From the NCBI GenBank assembly GCA_017543645.1, contig JAFYFR010000137.1, positions 1 to 39,480 on the forward strand: a stretch of 39,480 nt of DNA, given 5' to 3'. Positions 2,303-33,760 of this stretch are shown here, in pieces. Under the pieces are notes generated by a model that made no database searches, had not been told where the DNA came from, and saw only the letters and a list, made by a program, of their open reading frames with translations. The translations under genes and the position numbers were made by a program. Each line of letters starts with the position of its first letter. Within the stretch, counting starts at the first letter, position 1. The stretch comes from Bacteroidales bacterium. Lineage in GTDB: Bacteria; Bacteroidota; Bacteroidia; Bacteroidales; UBA3824.

Positions 2303-3021
2303 AGTTTTGAGAAATTGGCTAACTGTTGTAATGTAACACGTTTTTCGTAAATAGCTTTACCCACTATAACCGAGTGGCAGCCGGTCTGGGCAAGGCGTTC
2401 GATGTCGCCCATGTCTGACACGCCTCCGCTGGCAGTGATTTTGAGGTCAGGGTATTTTTCCTGAAGGCGTTTGTAGAGTACGATGTCGGGCCCGTTGAGC
2501 ATACCGTCGCACTTGATAGCGGTAACGCACACGCGCTGGAGACCCGCCGGAAGGAACTTTTCGATAAGTTCGCCGATGGTGGTTCCTGCGTCGCTCTGCC
2601 ATCCGTTGATTCTGACGGTTTCGCCGTTGACATCGGCGCTTAGGATTATTTTGTCGGGGCCGTATTTCTCGAGGCACTTGGTCATTACGGCAGGATTCTT
2701 AACAGCCACGCTGCCGAGGTTTACCGCGTACGCGCCCAGTGAGAACAGCATCTCCACGTCGCCTATGGTCTTGATTCCTCCGCCGCAGTCGATTTTCAGG
2801 TCGGTCTTGTTGGCAATGTTGTTGAGCACGTTGGTGTTCTGCAGCATACCCTTGCGTGCGCCGTCGAGGTCTACGAGGTGCAGGTGCGTAAGACCCGCCT
2901 CGCAGTACTGCTCAGCCACTTTCACGGGGTCGCTGTCGTATTTCTTAAGGTTGTCGAACAATCCTTGCTGAAGCCTTACGCATTGTCCGCCAATAATGTC
3001 GATTGCTGGTATTATAATCAT
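2296..3021 (-). CDS. hisA: ProFAR isomerase (phosphoribosylformimino-5-aminoimidazole carboxamide ribotide isomerase)
   Basis: This 241-residue TIM barrel has [16 protein letters not shown] at the N-terminus with the catalytic Asp, DCGGGI and ASGGVSD as phosphate-binding loops, and LSADVNG carrying the second catalytic region on strand 5. HisA performs the Amadori isomerisation of ProFAR to PRFAR, the substrate of HisF-HisH. The start overlaps the end of hisH by 4 bp (ATGA type) and its end overlaps hisF, so the three genes read as one translationally coupled operon. Length is normal for the family. Confidence 0.97.
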
Positions 3022-3605
3022 AGCTTAATAAAGTTTTCAAGAATTCTGAGGCCTGTGCTGCCGCTCTTTTCGGGGTGGAACTGGCAACCGTAGAAATTGT
3101 CCTTGGCTATAGCTGCCGAAAAGTCCTGCGCGTAGGAGCAGGCCGCCGCCGTATGCTCAAACACCGGCACCATGTAGCTGTGCACAAAGTACATGAAGCT
3201 CTCTTCGGGGATACCCTCGAAGAGTGGCGATTTGAGATTGTGTATCTGGTTCCATCCCATGTGCGGGATTTTTTCGTTGTTGACTGCGCGGAATTTCACT
3301 ACCTCGGTGTCGAATATTCCGAGGCACCGTGTGTCGCCCTCCTCGCTGTGGCGGCACATCATCTGCATTCCGAGGCAGATGCCTAATACCGGCTGCCGGA
3401 GGTTTGGAATGAGGGTGTCGAGCCCTGCGGCTTTGAGGGCGTCTAACGCTGCGTTGGCGTGTCCCACACCGGGAAATATCACCTTGTCGGCGGCTTCGAT
3501 AGTGCTAATATCCTTGGTAAGCACGGTCTGGCAGCCCAGACGCTGCAGTGCCGCCTCCACCGATTTGATATTGCCAGCCTTGTAGTCGATAATTGCTATC
3601 TTCAT
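3018..3605 (-). CDS. hisH: Imidazole glycerol phosphate synthase, glutamine amidotransferase subunit
   Basis: A 195-residue class I glutaminase. Seen: IIDYKAGNIKSVEAAL at the N-terminus, GVGHANAAL near the oxyanion region, nucleophile Cys in LGICLGMQMM, and the His/Glu pair in GCQFHPEKSG. HisH hydrolyses glutamine and channels ammonia through the HisF barrel. It is the first gene of the hisH-hisA-hisF operon, with a TATCTTTG -7 element about 27 bp upstream of its start. The operon is separated from hisB, which lies some 16 kb away on the other strand. Confidence 0.97.
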   Translation of the reverse strand: MKIAIIDYKAGNIKSVEAALQRLGCQTVLTKDISTIEAADKVIFPGVGHANAALDALKAAGLDTLIPNLRQPVLGICLGMQMMCRHSEEGDTRCLGIFDTEVVKFRAVNNEKIPHMGWNQIHNLKSPLFEGIPEESFMYFVHSYMVPVFEHTAAACSYAQDFSAAIAKDNFYGCQFHPEKSGSTGLRILENFIKL

Positions 3606-3665: not shown

Positions 3666-6600
3666 TTAAAACAACACCAATTTGTACGTGTTCCCGTTAA
3701 TCCTTACCACAAACAAACCAGATTTTGAAATATTGATTTCCTCGTGTGAGGATTGTGTGGCGGATGATTTGATGGTGTGGCCGTTGGTATCAATTACGGT
3801 ATAATTGCTGCCGGGGACTGTTTCGATAAATATGGTGCGGCTATTAGACCATACTTTGGCGGCGGTGGTTTGGGATACTGACGATACAGGGGTTGACTGC
3901 TTGTCTGCAACTGTAACGGTCAATGTGGTTTCCATGCCTTGGTATTCTATCTTTAAAGTCTGCTCACCTACCTTGGTATTGTCGTAGCCTGTGATGGTGG
4001 CTTCTGATAGGTCTATGGTTTCTGTTTCGTCGGTGTTGTAGGTTAGGGTGAGAATGCCGTTTTCAGCTGAGAAGTCGTCGCCTTCGGTGTATTCGGTTTT
4101 GGGCGATGTGGTAACAGATATTGAGGCAAGAGCCTTCTTAATCTTTACGGTAACGGTCAGTGTGGTTTCCATGCCTTGGTATTCTATCTTTAAAGTCTGC
4201 TCACCTACCTTGGTATTGTCGTAGCCTGTGATGGTGGCTTCTGATAGGTCTATGGTTTCTGTTTCGTCGGTGTTGTAGGTCAAGGTGAGAATGCCGTTTT
4301 CAGCTGAGAAGTCGTCGCCTTCGGTGTATTCGGTTTTGGGCGATGTGGTTACCTCTATGGCAACAATTTTTTTGAATGGAGCATTGCCCAATTTGGTAAA
4401 GTATCCGGGATTATCCTTGCCGCCGTCGATACGGGCGTAGGTGGCGTCGATATAGTGTTGATTGTACTCTGTGCCTTTGCCGCCTATAAGGTTGTCGCAG
4501 CCGTAGAACATTTGTGGGTCGTTGTTTACAGTACTATTGTCCCAGCTGTCGCCTATATAAATGGTGGTGAGTTGGTAGCAATCTTGAAACATGTGTCCTG
4601 TCCTCGGATTGTTTTGTGTGCCGAATCCGGGGAGGTTGAGCTCTGTAAGCTGGCTACATTCTATAAACATGCACCAGAAATCTTTGGCGTTCTTGGTGTT
4701 AAAGGTGTGGAGGTCGATTTCTTCCAAGTTGGAGCATCGCTCAAACATGCAGGCAAACTCTGTTACATTTTCGGTGTTGAAACTGCTCAGGTCAATTTTT
4801 TTGCATCCGGCTCTGCGGAACATGCAGCTGATGTCGGTAGCGTTGGCGGTATTAAAGCCGCTGAGGTCAACGCTTTGGAGCTGCGGGCAGTCTTGAAACA
4901 TTCCTTTAAACGAGGTAACTTGGTCGGTAATAAGGTTCTCGATGCCAACAATAGAGGTGAGGTTTTTAAAACCGTTGAACCAGCAGTAGCAAGATGTGGG
5001 CTTATATTCTGCAAACGACTTGTCGAATACCACCTTGGTAATATTCTCAGCCGACGAACCCCAATCGGGTTTGTTCTCGGTGTCGTTTAGCTCATAAGCA
5101 TCTGAAGTTTTTTTGTTGTTGTAATAGAATGTGAGTGTGCCGTCGTTTACCACAACGTATGGTACAGGAGGAGTATATGCAGGTTCGCCCGATTTGGTGA
5201 AGTAGCCGGGATTCTCCGCGCCGCCGTCGATATGGGCGTAGGTGAGATCTATAAAGTCTTGGTTGTATGCTGTGCCTTGTCCGCCGTATAGTTTTATGCA
5301 ACAATAAAACATCCAGTCATATTCTGTAACCGAGGTATTCCAGTCCTCGCCGACAAAAATCGCATGGAGATTATAACAATCCCTGAACATTTGACACATA
5401 TCCGTTACATTCGCTGTGTTAAAATTGGATAAGTCGAGGGTGGTAAGACTTTCACAGCCTGCGAACATACTATTCATACTCGTAACATTCTCCGTATTGA
5501 GGAATTCACCTATTCCAGATATTTCTGTAAGGTTTTTAAAATTACTAAACAAATATATGCAATTTGTGGGCTTGTAGTTTTTGAATGATTCGTCGAACAC
5601 TACCTTAGTGACAGTGTTTTTGGCATCATCTGGCCACAAATCACACAACTGATCAGAGAACAATGGAACCGTAAAAGCACCTTCGGGCTTGGCATTGTTG
5701 TAATAGAATGTGGCAGTGCCGTCTTTGATTGTAACATACGGTTCGTCAGGAATAAACGCAGGTTCGCCCGATTTGGTAAGGTAGCCGGGGTTCTCAGAGC
5801 CGCCGTCGATATGGGCGTAGGAGGCATCGAGATATTCTTTATTGTACGCTGTGCCTTTGCCTCCATAAAGTTTGTCGCAAGCCTGAAACATATCATAAGA
5901 AACCGTTACCGAAGAGGTAACCCAACCTTCACCGACGAAAATTGTTTGAAGATACATGCATCCCGTGAACATAAGCCGTATATTCGTAACTTTTGCCATA
6001 TTGAAATTGCTGAGGTCGAGGTTGGTAAGCTGTTTGCAAAAATAGAACATCGCAGTCATATCCGTAACATCCTCCGTATTGAGGTATTCTTTCATTCCTG
6101 ATATTTCTGTAAGGTTTATTAACATTCTAAACCAATTTTCGCAACTTGTGGGCTTGTAGTCTTTGAACGATTTGTCGAAAACTACCTTTGTGACAGAGTT
6201 TCTGACATCTTCTGACCAGTAGTTAGAACTTGATTGTAACTTCAAAGCATCTTCGGACTTGGTATTGTTGTAATAGAATGTGGCAGTGCCGTCTTTGATT
6301 ACCACATACGGTTCGGAGTCGGCAGGGACATATTCAGGTTCGCCCGATTTGGTGAAGTAGCCGGGATTCTCAGGGCCGCCGTCGATGCGGGCGTAGGTTT
6401 TACTATCGCCTAATGATGCAAAAGCAGAGCCTTTTCCTCCCACCAGATTTGAACAATCATAAAACATCTGTCCTGTTTCGGTAATTGTAGCGTTAGACCA
6501 GCTGTCGCCGACATAGATAGTTTTCAAGCTGCTACAATACTGAAACATCTGAACTGTAACAGGGCTGCTCTGAGTATCAAAGCCTGACAAATCAAGCGTT

Positions 6601-7205
6601 GTAAGAGCGGAACATCTAATAAACATACAACGGAAAGAAGTTGCGCTCTTGGTATTAAAGGAGGACAAGTCAACAGATTGCAAAGTAGAACAACCTTCAA
6701 ACATGGAACTGAATTCTTTCACATTTTCGGTATTGAACATACTTAAATCCAGAGATTTAAACACAGTTCTGCGGAACATACAGCTGATGTCGATAGCTTT
6801 GGCTGTATTGAAACCGCTGAGGTCAACGCTTTGGAGAGCGGTGCAGTCTGAGAACATCGCCTTAAAATATTGGACATCCTTGGTTTTAAGATTCTCGATA
6901 CCAACTATCTGAGTAAGATTTTTGCATTTAAAGAACCAGTATGCGCAAGATTTTGGCAAATAGTCTGCAAACGAAGCATCAAACTTGACTGTGGTAATAG
7001 TTGCGGCCGTGGCTTCATCCACCGTCCAACCGGGATTGTTAATATCAGTATTCATACCATAAGCGTCTGACGGTATGCTGCTGTTGTAGTAGAATGTGAG
7101 TGTGCCGGAGTTAAGCACGGCGTATGCCTCGTTGGTCCCTTGGGCAAATGCGGCAAGGGACAATAATGTTAATAATGAAGTAGTAATTAGATTTTTGATT
7201 TTCAT
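3666..7205 (-). CDS. BspA-like surface protein with four repeat modules, two Ig-like domains and a T9SS-type C-terminal domain
   Basis: The 1179-residue protein starts with a signal peptide (MKIKNLITTSLLTLLSLAAFAQ). Four related modules follow at about residues 27-285, 297-475, 488-670 and 682-925. Each opens with a DGTxTFYYNN strand, contains DUF285/BspA units of the type FNTxNVTDMxxMFxxCxxL, and closes with YAHIDGGxENPGYFTKSG. Residues about 952-1018 and 1031-1097 are two nearly identical bacterial Ig-like domains (SPKTEYTEGDDFSAENG). The end (VWSNSRTIFIE ... DTNGHTI ... ISKSGLFVVRINGNTYKL) resembles a type A T9SS sorting domain. BspA relatives are surface adhesins that bind matrix proteins in oral species; the ligand here is unknown. 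A promoter fits at 7287-7318. A paralogue with the same C-terminal pattern lies at 29855. Confidence 0.88.
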   Translation of the reverse strand: MKIKNLITTSLLTLLSLAAFAQGTNEAYAVLNSGTLTFYYNSSIPSDAYGMNTDINNPGWTVDEATAATITTVKFDASFADYLPKSCAYWFFKCKNLTQIVGIENLKTKDVQYFKAMFSDCTALQSVDLSGFNTAKAIDISCMFRRTVFKSLDLSMFNTENVKEFSSMFEGCSTLQSVDLSSFNTKSATSFRCMFIRCSALTTLDLSGFDTQSSPVTVQMFQYCSSLKTIYVGDSWSNATITETGQMFYDCSNLVGGKGSAFASLGDSKTYARIDGGPENPGYFTKSGEPEYVPADSEPYVVIKDGTATFYYNNTKSEDALKLQSSSNYWSEDVRNSVTKVVFDKSFKDYKPTSCENWFRMLINLTEISGMKEYLNTEDVTDMTAMFYFCKQLTNLDLSNFNMAKVTNIRLMFTGCMYLQTIFVGEGWVTSSVTVSYDMFQACDKLYGGKGTAYNKEYLDASYAHIDGGSENPGYLTKSGEPAFIPDEPYVTIKDGTATFYYNNAKPEGAFTVPLFSDQLCDLWPDDAKNTVTKVVFDESFKNYKPTNCIYLFSNFKNLTEISGIGEFLNTENVTSMNSMFAGCESLTTLDLSNFNTANVTDMCQMFRDCYNLHAIFVGEDWNTSVTEYDWMFYCCIKLYGGQGTAYNQDFIDLTYAHIDGGAENPGYFTKSGEPAYTPPVPYVVVNDGTLTFYYNNKKTSDAYELNDTENKPDWGSSAENITKVVFDKSFAEYKPTSCYCWFNGFKNLTSIVGIENLITDQVTSFKGMFQDCPQLQSVDLSGFNTANATDISCMFRRAGCKKIDLSSFNTENVTEFACMFERCSNLEEIDLHTFNTKNAKDFWCMFIECSQLTELNLPGFGTQNNPRTGHMFQDCYQLTTIYIGDSWDNSTVNNDPQMFYGCDNLIGGKGTEYNQHYIDATYARIDGGKDNPGYFTKLGNAPFKKIVAIEVTTSPKTEYTEGDDFSAENGILTLTYNTDETETIDLSEATITGYDNTKVGEQTLKIEYQGMETTLTVTVKIKKALASISVTTSPKTEYTEGDDFSAENGILTLTYNTDETETIDLSEATITGYDNTKVGEQTLKIEYQGMETTLTVTVADKQSTPVSSVSQTTAAKVWSNSRTIFIETVPGSNYTVIDTNGHTIKSSATQSSHEEINISKSGLFVVRINGNTYKLVLF
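3913..4349 (-). repeat. Near-identical direct repeat, 237-bp period, encoding duplicated Ig-like domains
   Basis: Copies at 3913-4112 and 4150-4349 align over 200 bp with only about three mismatches, including silent third-position changes. The near-identity points to a recent in-frame duplication or to ongoing homogenisation. Confidence 0.93.
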
Positions 7206-7504: not shown

Positions 7505-7980
7505 CTTTCGGTATTATAAGAAAGTATGAGTACAAGTTGTACATTTGCCTTCCGTAGCTACCGAAAGCCGTAGTGCAAAAAAAATTTTGCCTTCCGTAGC
7601 TACCGAAAGCCTTAGTACAAAAAAAGTTTTGCCTTCGGTAATTACCGAAAGCCTTAGTACAAAAAAAGTTTTGCCTTCGGTAATTGCCGAAAGCCTTAGT
7701 ACAAAAAAAGTTTTGCCTTCGGTAGTTGCCGAAAATGGTTACTTTTTTTGCGCAAGAGCTTTCGGTTATTACCGAAAACCACTTTTACTTTTGCATTACG
7801 GCTTTCCTTAGTTGCGGATTGGTGTTGTGATTTTTGAACTACCCTTTTCCGTAGCTACCGAAAGGTGTTGCACATTTGAACTATACCTTTCGGTAGCTGC
7901 CGAAAGGTGTTGTTACATTTGCACGAGGGCTTCCGGCTATAGCGGAAGACTGATGTTACAACCGAATTACTGTTTTCTGT
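7505..7980. repeat. Array of about eleven palindromes at 42-43 bp spacing between divergent genes
   Basis: The core is an inverted repeat such as TTCGGTAATTACCGAA. Cores begin at 7507, 7550, 7592, 7634, 7676, 7718, 7761, 7804 (degenerate), 7847, 7889 and 7931, with a possible eroded copy near 7975. Intervals are 42 or 43 bp throughout. Units 7547-7756 share a spacer like TTAGTACAAAAAAAGTTTTG; the later units share GGTGTTG followed by ATTTG. Core bases vary but symmetry is largely retained, for example TTCCG paired with CGGAA at 7931. A reading frame crosses the first units, but the 43-bp steps shift it and a stop occurs at 7809, so I do not regard it as protein-coding. The array fills most of the 885-bp gap between the BspA-like gene and the transporter gene. 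It could be a tandem operator, an RNA hairpin string or a minisatellite. Confidence 0.9.
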
Positions 7981-8016: not shown

Positions 8017-8046
8017 TTGCCATATTGTAATTATTCATTATATTTG
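8017..8046 (+). promoter_or_regulatory. Candidate promoter of the GPH transporter gene
   Basis: TTG at 8017-8019 (within TATTG), a 19-bp spacer and TATATTTG at 8039-8046 fit the Bacteroidota consensus with a weak -33. It starts about 40 bp after the palindrome array, so the array could act on it. Confidence 0.55.
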
Positions 8047-8090: not shown

Positions 8091-9434
8091 ATGGCAAGTT
8101 TAAAAGAGAAAATAGGCTACGCGCTCGGCGATGCGGCTTCTGGCGGCATCACGTGGAAAATCATGTCGATTGCTTTTCCGTTTTATTTTACTAATGTTTT
8201 CGGACTGTCGCTGGCGGATGCTGCAGTGCTGATGCTTGTGGCGAGGATGTTCGACGTGGTTACCGACCCGCTGATGGGCAGCCTTGCCGACCGTACGCAG
8301 TCGCGCTGGGGCACTTACCGTCCGTGGCTGATTATCGGAGCCATACCGTTCGGACTTATATTCGCCCTGCTGCTCTACACTCCCGACTTTGGCGAGGTGG
8401 GCAAGCGAGTGTATGCCTATACGCTGTATTTGCTGATGATGGCTTGCTATACGGCTGTTAACGTGCCATACGGTTCGCTGCTCGGCGTTATGACCAGCGA
8501 CGACAACGAGAAAAACCAGTTTTCCTCGTTCCGCATGGTGGGCGCGTATGCCATGGGCTTTATAACGCTGCTGTCGTTCCCCTATATTCAGAAATTTATC
8601 GGCGGCACCGACCAGCACCAGTATGCGGTTATCGGAGTGGTGTTTGGAATAATAGCTGCCGCAATGACCCTTGCCTGCGGTCTGATGACAAAAGAGAGGC
8701 TCAAGCCGGTGCGCGCCGAGAAATTCTCGTTCAAGCAGTTTGCCGACTTGGTTAAGAACAAGCCGTGGATCTACCTCACAAGCATCGGCATCTGCACCAA
8801 CTTTTTCAACGGATTCCGCTACGCCGTGGCAAGCTATATGTTCACCTACTGCCTCAACGGCGAGGTTACGTTAGGTTCGTTTATCATCAACTACACAGTG
8901 TTTATGGCATTCGGCGAGGTTGCCTGCATGATTTTCGGAGGAGTGTCGCCGGCATTTACTAAAAAAATCGGTTCTAAGCACATGGCGTTCACCTATTCGG
9001 CTATTATATGTCTGGTTTGCTCGGTGCTGTTCTTCCTTATACCTATGGAAGCGGGGTATATGTGGCTGATGGTGGCCGTTGTGGTGCTTACCTCGGTGGG
9101 AGTGGGTCTCTATTCGCCGCTGCTTTGGTCGATGTATGCCGACGTGGCCGATTACGCTACCCAGACTAACGGAACTTCGTCTACAGGATTGATTTTCTCG
9201 TCGGGAACAATGGCTCAGAAACTCGGCGGCGCGGTGTCGGGCTCGTTGATAGCGGCGCTTCTCGGACTTGCCGGCGCGTCGATGATTACCGACGAAATGG
9301 GCAACAGCTCCATCGATCCCAAATCGGTTACCGACAGCGTTAAGACGATGATTTGGAGCTTGTTCTCGCTATTTCCTGCCGTTATTGCCGCCATTATGGG
9401 ATTCCTGGCTTACAAGTTCCCCATAAAGAAGTAA
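8091..9434 (+). CDS. GPH-family (MelB-like) sugar:cation symporter
   Basis: This 447-residue inner-membrane protein has about twelve hydrophobic segments. The N-terminus (KEKIGYALGDAASGGITW ... FYFTNVFGL) and the loop RMFDVVTDPLMGSLADRT followed by SRWGTYRPWLIIGAIP are the signature of the glycoside-pentoside-hexuronide symporter family of the major facilitator superfamily. Known members import sugars such as melibiose, xylosides or glucuronides with Na+ or H+. The substrate cannot be read from the sequence, and there is no glycosidase or sugar kinase nearby to suggest one. It begins just after the palindrome array and is followed 41 bp later by an outer-membrane protein gene, with no obvious terminator between, so co-transcription is possible. 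Confidence 0.9.
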   Translation: MASLKEKIGYALGDAASGGITWKIMSIAFPFYFTNVFGLSLADAAVLMLVARMFDVVTDPLMGSLADRTQSRWGTYRPWLIIGAIPFGLIFALLLYTPDFGEVGKRVYAYTLYLLMMACYTAVNVPYGSLLGVMTSDDNEKNQFSSFRMVGAYAMGFITLLSFPYIQKFIGGTDQHQYAVIGVVFGIIAAAMTLACGLMTKERLKPVRAEKFSFKQFADLVKNKPWIYLTSIGICTNFFNGFRYAVASYMFTYCLNGEVTLGSFIINYTVFMAFGEVACMIFGGVSPAFTKKIGSKHMAFTYSAIICLVCSVLFFLIPMEAGYMWLMVAVVVLTSVGVGLYSPLLWSMYADVADYATQTNGTSSTGLIFSSGTMAQKLGGAVSGSLIAALLGLAGASMITDEMGNSSIDPKSVTDSVKTMIWSLFSLFPAVIAAIMGFLAYKFPIKK

Positions 9435-29813: not shown

Positions 29814-29854
29814 CATTGGCAACCATAATTATCAACTTCAAAATTACAATTGAC

Positions 29855-32800
29855 ATGAAAAAATTACAACTATTATTAATTTCTATCCTCATTCCATTTA
29901 CTGTTTTTGGGGAAATAATGCGTGCAGAGTCCTACTCATTTGACGAATCTACACAAACTCTTACTATCAGTGACGGTTTTTCCAGATATAGTTTCTACGG
30001 CGACAAAAACTTGGTTCTAAAAATTGTTGCCGAAGAAGGTGCTCTGTTGCCCCAAAACTGTTCATCTTTATTGGATGAGTACTTCAATGTTACTGAGATT
30101 GACCTTTCAAAGGCTGACGCTTCTGAGGTAACATCGATGCGTAGTATGTTTTACAACTGTATTAATCTTGAAAGCATTACCTTCGGTGATGAATTCAGCA
30201 CTCCTCAATTAACCGATATGGAGAATATGTTTTGGAATTGTTACAAATTAAAATCAGTTACATTTGGCAAAAAATTCAATACATCGAAAGTACAGGATAT
30301 GACATTTATGTTTATGAATTGCAAAAGTCTTGAAAGCGTAATTTTCGGCGAACAGTTCACAGCTGATGATGTCCAATACATTAATTGTATGTTCAGCAAT
30401 TGTTACAGTCTCAAAACTGTTGACTTGAGCAGTTTTAACACTAAGGAGTTAGTCTCTATGGGACAGATGTTTGATAATTGCCGCAGCCTTACCACTGTTA
30501 ACTTCGGAAACATGAATACATCGTCGGTTAAGTATATGAACTATATGTTCAATGGATGTATGAGTCTTACAAATGTTACATTAGATTTTGATTCTCAGAA
30601 TGTAGAAACCATGGATAAGATGTTTGCAGATTGTATCAGTCTTAAAGACATCTCATTCGGCAAAAACTTCAGCACTGCCAAAGTCAAGAATATGGACGAT
30701 ATGTTCTTAAACTGCAAGAGTCTTACAGAGCTTACTTTGAATTTTGATAACAGCAATGTATCAACCTTGGTTCGTATGTTCAAAGGTTGCGAAAAACTCG
30801 TTACTATTTATGTCGGCAGTGAATGGTATCCTTCAAAGGTGAACCAATCTTCTGCATACTCACTGTTTCAAGATTGTTTTAATCTTATTGGTGGAGAAGG
30901 CACATGTTATGCCAGCCATAGCTACGAAGCCAACCTTTCAACGTATGCCCAAATAGACGGCGGCACTGGAAATCCCGGCTTTTTTACAGAAATTGGCAAA
31001 GAAAAAAACATCGGAGTAACAATTCTATCGGTTGATCCTAAATATACAGAATTTGCCATAGGTGAGAAAATTAACACAGCCGAAGGCACCGTAACATATC
31101 TCTGCACTAAGGAAGGTAGCAATACAGGAACTGAAGTTACTGTAGCATTGGCACATGGATATCTGTTGGATTACGATCCTTATAAAGAAGGCACTCAGAC
31201 TATTCAAGTTGCATGTTGTGGTTCTACAAACACAGTGTCCTTTGATGTTTCATTCAACGAAAAACCTATGCTATACATGTTATACGACCTCGAACAGAAG
31301 CAATTGAACTACTATTTCGGCAGTTATCAACCAAATGCTACGCTCTACCGTTTGTCATATTTAGATTCAGATATTAAAAAAGTGCATATTGACCAGTCGT
31401 TAAACACCGCCAAACTTTCATCTCTGAAATTTAACAATTTATCCAACGTTACAGAGATAGAAGGCCTGAACTATATTCATACAGACAATATGTCTAACAT
31501 GCAGGAAATGTTTAAAAATTGCAGCTCGCTTTTGAGCCTTGATTTGCGTAGTTTTAATACCGAAAAAGTAGAAAACATGGATGATATGTTTAGTGGTTGC
31601 TTTAAGCTTCGCAGAATATTTGTTTCTTCCGGATGGCAAATCAATAGTATTCTTACTGGATCCTATCTTAATGGATTCTATGATTATATTTTTAACAGCT
31701 GTAACAAATTGATAGGAGGACAAGGTACACAGTACAAGGATGACGCCGCAACGATAGGCTTACCTTACGCAAAAATAGACGAAGGTGCAACATCGCCTGG
31801 ATATTTGACCGATAGGGTTTCTCTCTCCACTTTGGAGAATATGATTTCGCCCGACCCATTTGTGTATACTGGCGAGCCTATCTGCCCCATAGTTTACGAT
31901 GGTGCAATTCAGCTTGTAGAAAATATTGATTACACTGCCACATATTCCAACAATATCAATGTAGGTACAGCCACGATGATCATTACGGGCAAGGACAAAT
32001 ATTCTGGAACAGTAACTTTGAATTATTCTATTTATAAAGCCAAAGCCTCATTAATCAAAGCTCCTGCCGTTATCGAAAATCTTGTTTACGATGGCAAGCC
32101 TATAGCACTTGTTACAGAAGGAAAAACGAATTTGGGCAAAATGGTTTATCGTCTTGGCTATGATGGAGAACCTTCCGAAGAAATACCTACTGCCACCGAT
32201 GCCGGAACCTATTTAGTTTTTTATAATGTGCCAGGCACCGACAACTACGATGGTGTTTCGGATAATTATTTGACAGTTTCTATCGCCGAAGCCAATTCTG
32301 AGCTTGTTACCGCGCCAGAGCCTGTTAGCAACCTTGTGTATACCGGCAAGCCTCAGAGCATTGTTGTGCCAGGAGTTGCCAAAAACGGAACGGTTATATA
32401 CCGTATCGGCTCTTACGGCATATTTTCGGAAGATATTCCCTCTCCCACGCTTGCCCAAGATTATCTTGTATATTACAAGGTGGAGGGCGACAATAATTAC
32501 AACGATGTTGACGAACAATTTTTCACAGTGTCGATTTCCCCAGCCGAAGCTAAAATAACAACCGAACCCATGGCGGTGCAAAATCTTGTGTACAATGGTA
32601 AAAGTCAAGAACTTATTTCTGCGGGAGAGTCTAATTTCGGTAATGTAGTCTATAAACTTGGTTCCAACGGCGTGTATTCGTCCGCTATTCCAACAGCCAC
32701 CGATGCCGCTGAGTACACTGTATATTACAAAGTGGAAGGCAACGATAATTTCAAAGGCATTGCCGAAGCCTCTGTAAAGGTTGCTATTAACAAGGGTGTG

Positions 32801-33760
32801 CCAACATACACCAAACCATCGATTCCGACATTAGCATGCAATGCCAAGTTAGACGATATTACATTTGACAATGGTTTCGCTTTCGCACCCAACAGCAACC
32901 CACTTAAAATCGGCGCAAACAAACTTATGCTTGTGTACACTCCCGACGACACCGACAATTATGAGGTTGTGGAGGATATTGAGATAACTATTACCGTAGC
33001 CGACCATGTGGGAGCTGACCCCGTTGTTGAAAATAATCAACCTGCTACCTGCAACAATACTGGTTCGTGTCACAAAGTTGTGTACTGCTCTGTTTGCAAC
33101 AAGGAGTTAAGCCGCACGCCAACTACAATTCCCGCATTAAGCCACCAATTCGGTACGCCTGAATACACATGGAGCGACGACGGCTCATCTTGCACCGCAA
33201 AAGCAGTTTGCGCCAACGACAAATCGCACATTCTTACCGAAACCGCAACAATTTCCAGCGAAGTAACTACCCAACCCACCACCGAGAGCAAGGGTACTAC
33301 CACATACACGGCTACTTTCAAAAACGAATTGTTTTCCACTCAGACCAAGGCTGTAGAGGATATTGACAAACTCCAACCCGAGAACCCAGAAAATCCCGAG
33401 AATCCAGAAAACCCAGAAAATCCAGAAAATCCCGAGAATCCTGAAAACCCCGAGAATCCCGAGAACCCCGAGAATCCTGAAAATCCAGAGAATCCTGAAA
33501 ACCCTGAAAACCCCGAGAATCCCGAGAATCCGGGAACCCCTGTTTCAGATGTTCCTGTGTCGAGCGTAAAAGTTTGGAGTTTCAGCAACATCATCGTTAT
33601 AGAATCTGCTTCCGACTGTCATTACAAAATAGTTGACCTCAACGGACATACGATTTCGGAATCAACCACAACATCTACCCGCGAACAGATATCAATCAAC
33701 CAATCGGGCATTTATATTGTACTTATTAATCAAAAATCGTATAAAGTTTTGATTAATTGA
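29855..33760 (+). CDS. BspA-like surface protein with MBG-type repeats, Pro-Glu-Asn stalk and T9SS-type C-terminal domain
   Basis: The ATG at 29855 starts a signal peptide (MKKLQLLLISILIPFTVFG); the frame is open from 29816, but that start would bury it. The product is 1301 residues. About residues 60-375 and 500-600 hold DUF285/BspA units (AKVKNMDDMFLNCKSLTEL type). About 653-1040 contain Ig-like repeats of about 88 residues with the pattern VYDGKPI ... TDAGTYLVFYNV ... NYDGVSDNYLTVSI, resembling MBG domains. About 1049-1170 have a Cys pattern (TCNNTGSCHKVVYCSVC) like repeats common in gut surface proteins. Residues 1175-1225 are 17 Pro-Glu-Asn triplets, probably a rigid stalk. The C-terminus (VWSFSNIIVIE ... 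DLNGHTISE ... NQSGIYIVLINQKSYKV) matches that of the protein at 3666-7205 and resembles a T9SS sorting domain. Its ligand is unknown. Confidence 0.88.
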   Translation: MKKLQLLLISILIPFTVFGEIMRAESYSFDESTQTLTISDGFSRYSFYGDKNLVLKIVAEEGALLPQNCSSLLDEYFNVTEIDLSKADASEVTSMRSMFYNCINLESITFGDEFSTPQLTDMENMFWNCYKLKSVTFGKKFNTSKVQDMTFMFMNCKSLESVIFGEQFTADDVQYINCMFSNCYSLKTVDLSSFNTKELVSMGQMFDNCRSLTTVNFGNMNTSSVKYMNYMFNGCMSLTNVTLDFDSQNVETMDKMFADCISLKDISFGKNFSTAKVKNMDDMFLNCKSLTELTLNFDNSNVSTLVRMFKGCEKLVTIYVGSEWYPSKVNQSSAYSLFQDCFNLIGGEGTCYASHSYEANLSTYAQIDGGTGNPGFFTEIGKEKNIGVTILSVDPKYTEFAIGEKINTAEGTVTYLCTKEGSNTGTEVTVALAHGYLLDYDPYKEGTQTIQVACCGSTNTVSFDVSFNEKPMLYMLYDLEQKQLNYYFGSYQPNATLYRLSYLDSDIKKVHIDQSLNTAKLSSLKFNNLSNVTEIEGLNYIHTDNMSNMQEMFKNCSSLLSLDLRSFNTEKVENMDDMFSGCFKLRRIFVSSGWQINSILTGSYLNGFYDYIFNSCNKLIGGQGTQYKDDAATIGLPYAKIDEGATSPGYLTDRVSLSTLENMISPDPFVYTGEPICPIVYDGAIQLVENIDYTATYSNNINVGTATMIITGKDKYSGTVTLNYSIYKAKASLIKAPAVIENLVYDGKPIALVTEGKTNLGKMVYRLGYDGEPSEEIPTATDAGTYLVFYNVPGTDNYDGVSDNYLTVSIAEANSELVTAPEPVSNLVYTGKPQSIVVPGVAKNGTVIYRIGSYGIFSEDIPSPTLAQDYLVYYKVEGDNNYNDVDEQFFTVSISPAEAKITTEPMAVQNLVYNGKSQELISAGESNFGNVVYKLGSNGVYSSAIPTATDAAEYTVYYKVEGNDNFKGIAEASVKVAINKGVPTYTKPSIPTLACNAKLDDITFDNGFAFAPNSNPLKIGANKLMLVYTPDDTDNYEVVEDIEITITVADHVGADPVVENNQPATCNNTGSCHKVVYCSVCNKELSRTPTTIPALSHQFGTPEYTWSDDGSSCTAKAVCANDKSHILTETATISSEVTTQPTTESKGTTTYTATFKNELFSTQTKAVEDIDKLQPENPENPENPENPENPENPENPENPENPENPENPENPENPENPENPENPENPGTPVSDVPVSSVKVWSFSNIIVIESASDCHYKIVDLNGHTISESTTTSTREQISINQSGIYIVLINQKSYKVLIN
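33377..33529 (+). repeat. Seventeen tandem 9-bp units encoding Pro-Glu-Asn
   Basis: All 17 units encode PEN, yet the codons vary (CCC, CCA, CCT; GAG, GAA; AAT, AAC). This suggests that the peptide is maintained by selection rather than by recent slippage, although 9-bp steps still allow in-frame length change. Confidence 0.97.

Follow-up and report, generated by a model that had tools for sequence, protein, structure and literature searches.

The palindromic array of the window (the whole stretch of 39,480 bp that was analysed) is a diverged syntenic sister of an array that, in a related genome, directly precedes a gene for a DUF6261 protein, and it stands without such a gene beside it. We propose tentatively, and at somewhat under an even chance, that DUF6261 proteins and their arrays form an undescribed, self-contained recognition system of Bacteroidales, in which each paralog would read its own dyad-bearing unit at a pitch of 41–43 bp, about four helical turns, in cis next to the gene itself and, in trans, at sites that mostly lie at the ends of genes; from one paralog to another, the unit sequence would be exchanged entirely, with the pitch preserved. 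The window array may then be an orphan array of this gene-array system, a DNA lattice for the cognate protein, which is a proposal that we hold slightly more loosely still. That DUF6261 proteins read their arrays is what we infer from the link between gene and array, the pitch, the average symmetry of the units and the copies in trans.

All eleven core positions of the original prediction were verified (table 1), with core-to-core steps of 43, 42, 42, 42, 42, 43, 43, 43, 42, and 42 bp. Eight of the eleven cores differ from TTCGGTANNTACCGAA at no more than one of 14 positions, and the other three, with 4, 5, and 5 mismatches, are recognizable, and were counted, by position only. When the window was scanned for TTCGGTANNTACCGAA with up to 2 mismatches, 8 matches were found, every one of them inside the array; the expectation from 100 dinucleotide shuffles of the window was 0.15 (largest count 2), which rules out chance palindromes as the origin of the array. 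TRF splits it into two blocks, 7544–7734 (period 42, 94% match) and 7821–7921 (period 42, 81% match). Spacer orientation reverses mid-array, the spacers 7734–7760 and 7777–7803 matching the reverse complement of the earlier ones, and the 42–43 bp core pitch continues across the flip; hence it is the cores and their pitch, rather than the spacer, that seem to be held constant, and the claim that the interval is kept even after core and spacer have diverged was borne out. The surface-protein and sugar-transporter genes between which the array had been placed are indeed divergent and encode a DUF285/LRR protein and an MFS sugar transporter, respectively. Three other origins were rejected: a CRISPR array, because its units adjoin one another directly and what separates the cores is itself repeated (no cas domain was found among the 19 window ORFs scanned with Pfam); coding repeats, because 41 and 43 bp are not divisible by three; and a phage, as the array had no match in the phage collection and its pattern was absent from viral contigs. 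Elsewhere in the window, a 21-bp tandem repeat of 7 copies (1272–1418) lies within the ORF at 505–1524, and a second DUF285/LRR_5 gene (29816–33760) has a 9/18-bp repeat near its end (33377–33542).

Table 1. Coordinates of the window array, its parts and its neighbours
Feature	Position	Strand	Remark
DUF285/LRR protein with Big_3 domains	3666..7205	-	Left-hand neighbour
Whole array	7507..7946	.	11 core positions (7507, 7550, 7592, 7634, 7676, 7718, 7761, 7804, 7847, 7889, 7931); 42–43 bp pitch
Degenerate edge core	7507..7522	.	4 mismatches
Left block	7550..7733	.	Five good cores (7550, 7592, 7634, 7676, 7718); similar 26-bp spacers
Turning point	7734..7803	.	Reversed spacers 7734–7760 and 7777–7803 around core 7761–7776
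Degenerate core within array	7804..7819	.	5 mismatches
Right block	7847..7904	.	Good cores 7847, 7889; second spacer type (AGGTGTTG...)
Degenerate edge core	7931..7946	.	5 mismatches
Promoter-like site of MFS gene, TTG-N19-TATATTTG	8017..8046	+	Outside array; read from sequence
MFS sugar transporter (PF13347)	8091..9434	+	Right-hand neighbour

The position of the array between divergent starts, 302 bp from one gene and 145 bp from the other, is what a multi-site operator of the two flanking genes would lead one to expect, and the original prediction had linked the array to these genes and their promoters. By using the transporter protein as a query, we fetched the best 80 of 460 related loci, all from other genomes, and none of these 80 contained two cores (with up to 2 mismatches) or a single perfect core. 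Among relatives that share the right-hand genes of the window, the array is absent from L008, where about 126 bp separate the HisH gene from the transporter, and no array precedes the transporter in L010, L012, and L028, even though in L010 and L028 the transporter adjoins a related LRR gene. The site TTG-N19-TATATTTG, which we take to be promoter-like from the Bacteroidetes promoter consensus, is located beyond the array, and a similar stretch also precedes the transporter gene in L010, L012, and L028. Transporter relatives devoid of an array, together with this promoter-like site, indicate that the array is not a fixed part of the transporter promoter, and the array-less loci, including these four relatives, lead us to reject an operator specific to the window. 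Given in addition that seven of the eight distinct internal trans arrays described below are not between divergent genes, we consider regulation of the two local genes very improbable, and the proposed link to them was not upheld.

The relationship of the window array to DUF6261 emerged from L015, a goat abomasum MAG in which an array occupies the corresponding place; its unit, of 43 bp, has another sequence, and the two arrays align with 63% identity over 323 bp and, in another alignment, 69% over 163 bp. Directly after the L015 array lies a DUF6261 gene, whose product has PF19775 as its sole Pfam match. An 87-residue C-terminal DUF6261 fragment, 83% identical to its L015 counterpart, remains in L010, and no DUF6261 match was obtained in six-frame open stretches of at least 60 residues of the window (home-made HMM, E-value 1e-4). 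The presence of an array at this site is thus variable among relatives, being observed in the window and L015 and in none of L008, L010, L012, and L028.

Searches for PF19775 in 18 genomes of the taxonomic family were positive in 13 and gave 54 matches (13 of them below the Pfam cut-off), and searches in 295 genomes of the class were positive in 5, one of which had already been seen, and gave 19 matches, including five repeats. These amount to 68 distinct DUF6261 matches, of which 67 loci were fetched, one truncated copy being excluded. Arrays were called by TRF, with periods of 38–46 bp, within 1,100 bp upstream of the DUF6261 gene, and were present at 47 of the 67 loci. When only loci with at least 500 bp upstream are considered, 45 of 62 genes have an array and 17 have no upstream 38–46 bp array by TRF; five of the 20 array-less loci among the 67 carry a 21–22 bp tandem pair instead. 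Eighteen further loci, of Prevotella type, comprise 11 with an upstream array, three with a downstream array only, and four with none. As a control, we examined 400 kb (337 ORFs) drawn from seven of these genomes, which contained three intergenic arrays of that size, two of which are orthologous to each other, as well as one 42-bp array within an ORF and one DUF6261-like ORF with no array nearby. The association is therefore far stronger at DUF6261 loci (45/62) than in the control (3 intergenic arrays per 337 ORFs; Fisher 1.6e-41), and it is one-sided: in the 58 loci with both flanks, the array is upstream in 42 and downstream in 1. L140 has two more 43-bp arrays, of another unit, downstream of its DUF6261 gene (gene-strand positions 2149–2342 and 2962–3243).

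The association also holds between genomes. Among Prevotella-type genomes, DUF6261 was found in 4/7 of those with a 41–44 bp array at the transporter locus versus 5/47 of those without (Fisher 0.011), and the addition of the previously searched genomes gives 9/12 versus 12/54 (Fisher 0.0009), a comparison that covers 66 of the 80 transporter-locus genomes. The transporter-side array failed to match the cis arrays found in the case of four Prevotella-type genomes. Arrays of 44, 44, and 42 bp with differing units also lie upstream of what is seemingly one and the same gene in three Prevotella-type loci (L055:3944–4043, L070:3667–3771, and L071:5063–5144, respectively). The arrays are not a MAG artefact, because a 41-bp array (3.6 copies, 93%) accompanies the annotated DUF6261 gene of a cultured strain whose genome is closed, Prevotella nigrescens FDAARGOS_1486. 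This gene and its array (L260, NZ_CP082843.1 416420–417373) are located in a conjugative-transposon-like region with Mob, Tra, and integrase genes; a similar region at 349–363 kb of the same record has no annotated DUF6261 in the gene table, which is incomplete.

Whereas the unit sequence differs for most DUF6261 paralogs, the period does not: although 38–46 bp was allowed, it is 41, 42, or 43 bp in 58 of 58 upstream arrays, that is, the 47 above and the 11 of Prevotella type. The 45 arrays of the loci with at least 500 bp upstream divide into 8 at 41, 20 at 42, and 17 at 43 bp, the remaining two of the 47 are at 43 bp each, and those of Prevotella type are three at 41, seven at 42, and one at 43 bp. 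Consecutive steps are exactly 43 bp in 86 of 86 cases (16 arrays from four families). The four-turn pitch of the original prediction is thus real and general, and the drift in spacing that would have pointed to an inert minisatellite is absent. With respect to symmetry, eight of the 47 units were set aside because shared 8-mers marked them as near-copies of others, and the remaining 39 non-redundant units have a self-complementarity of 57.7%, as compared with 48.0 ± 0.8% in base shuffles (largest of 100 sets, 49.8%). Taken singly, only 24 of 49 units reach a z above 2; the units are dyad-symmetric on average, as expected of protein sites. Because dyad symmetry in a repeating sequence recurs at half-period intervals, giving each unit two dyads, such a lattice has a dyad about every two turns, and paired dyads can be read, for example, in the G043 units. 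Shorter repeats were also observed: 22–23 bp tandem arrays, about two helical turns, are common in the 350 of 568 kb of NZ_CP082843.1 considered, several of them in gaps between annotated genes, and in the 80 transporter loci (best of 460) the commonest non-coding period of at least 18 bp is 21 bp, followed by 22 bp. Single cores similar to TTCGGTANNTACCGAA (one mismatch) number 28 in 14 related genomes, including 8 in G008, and form no array; the reversed pattern occurs 5 times.

Arrays away from DUF6261 genes were found by using a joined query of 41 array segments against 17 genomes, which recovered the cis arrays along with further arrays of their units. Among the matches listed, we fetched 24 trans places, none with a DUF6261 match. 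Thirteen of them end at or near a contig edge (e.g., L218, L219, L224, and L228), nine of these adjoining the 3' end of a gene and four a 5' end, and given these positions trans arrays are probably undercounted in draft genomes. The other 11, again among the matches listed, are internal (L220, L223, L229, L230, and L232–L238), come from nine genomes and represent eight distinct loci, five of which lie between convergent genes, two between co-directional genes, and one between divergent genes; the original association with promoters therefore fails here as well, and this placement is the type of result that had been named as favouring a minisatellite. In seven genomes (G001, G002, G006, G007, G043, G403, and G406), the unit of the trans array is also found beside a DUF6261 gene, while in G010 and G013 it has no cis counterpart in the assemblies examined. 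For instance, the trans array on C111 of G001 shares 95% identity with the one that accompanies the DUF6261 gene on C101, and G002 retains it at the corresponding site. At one edge of the trans arrays of L220 and L223, the end copy is inverted relative to the rest, which creates a long hairpin.

Several of these observations are those anticipated for a selfish or inert REP- or minisatellite-like repeat, spreading by a copying process of fixed, about four-turn length, with DUF6261 as a passenger or a factor and with dyads and pitch reflecting the manufacture of the repeat. Trans arrays occupy positions where insertion should harm little, since convergent gaps account for 5/8 internal loci versus 25/164 control gaps (p 0.003) and 3' ends predominate at contig edges. 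In family A, unlinked arrays of two genomes carry common variants at the same positions, as if drawn from one pool, and copy number differs between G001 and G002 arrays of one unit (e.g., 6.1 and 7.5, 7.1 and 8.4). The variable occupancy of the window's site and the conjugative-transposon-like surroundings of the P. nigrescens gene and array agree with mobility of this kind. Yet a selfish repeat would explain where the trans arrays lie and how they turn over, but not the one-sided link to a gene: an upstream preference of 42 to 1 for one gene family and a pitch of 41–43 bp in 58/58 arrays are hard to obtain without selection or a dedicated machine, and in families C and D the trans units seem, by eye on consensus units, more perfectly symmetric than the cis units. 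We therefore regard a purely selfish origin as unlikely, though worth keeping in mind.

Another possibility is that transcription of the array yields a chain of hairpins that acts on, or is bound by, the DUF6261 protein, like the repeat RNA of type III toxin–antitoxin systems, an arrangement suggested by the position of the array, with its own unit, directly upstream of a fast-evolving gene. Of the 47 cis arrays, 33 are separated from the ATG by a promoter-like TTG-N17-21-TAnnTTTG, which suggests that there the array is upstream DNA, ahead of transcription. For 39 arrays, such a site was found 5' of the array in 3 and between array and gene in 27. In the main lineage group (30 units), dyad mismatches show no strand bias (35 G-U and 50 A-C, vs. 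44 and 56 in shuffles) and the two strands fold alike, the sense strand being more stable in 14/30 cases (23/48 in a wider set). Neither Pfam, PADLOC, nor PDB sequences gave a ToxN-type match for DUF6261, whose predicted structure is all-helical (see below), and Rfam recognized no family at its cut-off in the window, where the nine weak matches were to eight microRNA models and one Aggregatibacter sRNA model. The second lineage group, made of 20 units from G043, G118, G430, and the Prevotella type (cis arrays of L125–L140 and L242–L259), behaves differently from the main one: the array ends 41–63 bp before the ATG in 9/20 cases, no promoter-like site separates them (0/20; 3/20 have one 5' of the array), and dyad mismatches in gene sense are 61 A-C versus 7 G-U (50.5 and 21.8 in shuffles, p 9e-5). 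This excess of A-C would be wobble pairs in antisense RNA and, to judge from the base pairs, would suit an antisense transcript. The sense strand of these units folds more stably in 7/20 cases (p 0.044), but the overall difference between strands is no larger than in shuffled units. An RNA role is possible in this one lineage group; the hairpin alternative offered in the original prediction found no support in the main group, only an odd strand bias in the second, and as an explanation of the arrays at large we judge it distinctly unlikely.

The DNA lattice remains our preferred reading because it accounts jointly for the pitch, the symmetry, the paralog-specific units, and the trans copies. 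A DUF6261 protein, or a partner, would recognize its own unit in dimeric or higher-order form and, unit after unit, occupy the same face of the helix, which would produce a regular nucleoprotein lattice over the array. The cis array would set the expression of its DUF6261 gene and the trans arrays would serve as additional platforms, so that the window array may be one of these platforms, recognized by a DUF6261 protein whose gene lies at another place in the genome, or else a relic of such a platform. From the original notion of an operator or nucleoprotein scaffold this reading retains the four-turn pitch and dyads in excess of shuffles and gives up the tie to flanking genes and promoters. 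Several findings count against it. An AlphaFold model of DUF6261 built from 18 sequences is an all-helical bundle with one 56-residue helix (pLDDT 87, pTM 0.62) that displays no recognized DNA-binding fold and for which no fold match stands out. Isoelectric points are mixed, with 19 of 31 DUF6261 proteins at 9 or above and 9 below 7; they track the array class, being 8.8–9.8 in 14/14 proteins with 43-bp arrays and 5.0–8.2 in 8/8 with 41–42 bp. Also unfavourable are the 17/62 genes with no array, the Prevotella-type loci with none (4/18) or with a downstream one only (3/18), the array-less DUF6261-like ORF of the control, the four Prevotella-type genomes whose transporter-side array is unlike their cis arrays, the modest symmetry of single units (24/49), the lack of a promoter-like site between array and ATG in the second group (0/20), and the G010 and G013 units with no cis array. 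In the DUF6261 proteins scanned (one with Pfam and five with further libraries), family libraries named no function and matched no transposase, Rep, or Par family; PADLOC, run on five proteins, returned one weak match, to a ZorF3 model (E-value 0.0045).

Comparison with known systems shows likenesses in layout. In type III toxin–antitoxin (ToxIN) loci, a repeat array lies directly upstream of the gene, and the known toxins are endoribonucleases. DUF6261 loci share the array directly upstream with its own unit (47/67 and 11/18 loci) but differ in the all-helical model of the protein, in the promoter-like site that follows the array (27/39), and in having arrays also away from the gene. REP/BIME elements are palindromic extragenic repeats with REP-associated tyrosine transposases (Y1, HUH). 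Palindromic extragenic copies in trans, dispersed in the genome and tied to one protein family, are likewise found here (11 internal loci, nine genomes), whereas DUF6261 matches no transposase family, the arrays are long and of fixed pitch, and most paralogs share no unit. Plasmid iteron and centromere-type arrays consist of direct repeats in helix register beside the gene of their binding protein; ours are also direct repeats in register beside a gene, whose product may bind them, but they occur mostly on chromosomal MAG contigs, with up to 13 DUF6261 matches in one genome, differing units, and no Rep or Par match. As in minisatellites (VNTRs), copy number varies by whole units between related genomes, whereas unit length is fixed (58/58 at 41–43 bp) and tied to one gene family. 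In Porphyromonas gingivalis, MITE464/PgRS and BrickBuilt are described as tandem repeats in intergenic regions, 41 bp long in PgRS and 23 bp in BrickBuilt, with about 10–20 copies per genome and no matches of the repeats outside the species; they lie within elements that have IS5-type terminal inverted repeats, and each element family has a single unit (PMC4596501). The order Bacteroidales, the intergenic tandem arrangement, and the 41 bp of PgRS are points in common; as far as that description goes, DUF6261 arrays are set apart from PgRS in that most paralogs have a unit of their own, which accompanies the DUF6261 gene. The resemblance to type III toxin–antitoxin, REP-RAYT, and PgRS is thus real in layout, and the defining feature fails in the first two. 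In the open-licence literature searched, no description of a DUF6261-array system was found, and a mention of DUF6261 was found only in a Streptococcus oralis study.

These data indicate a kind of repeat array that is apparently undescribed so far, beside one protein family of unknown function. For DUF6261 this means a physical partner present at many of its loci, and for a class of minisatellites of gut bacteria it means a gene. That the pitch is conserved and the sequence is not makes the arrays an unusual case in which length is the conserved feature. Moreover, the paralog-specific units, which provide about fifty natural protein/unit pairs, the one of P. nigrescens FDAARGOS_1486 among them, make protein–DNA or protein–RNA specificity directly testable.
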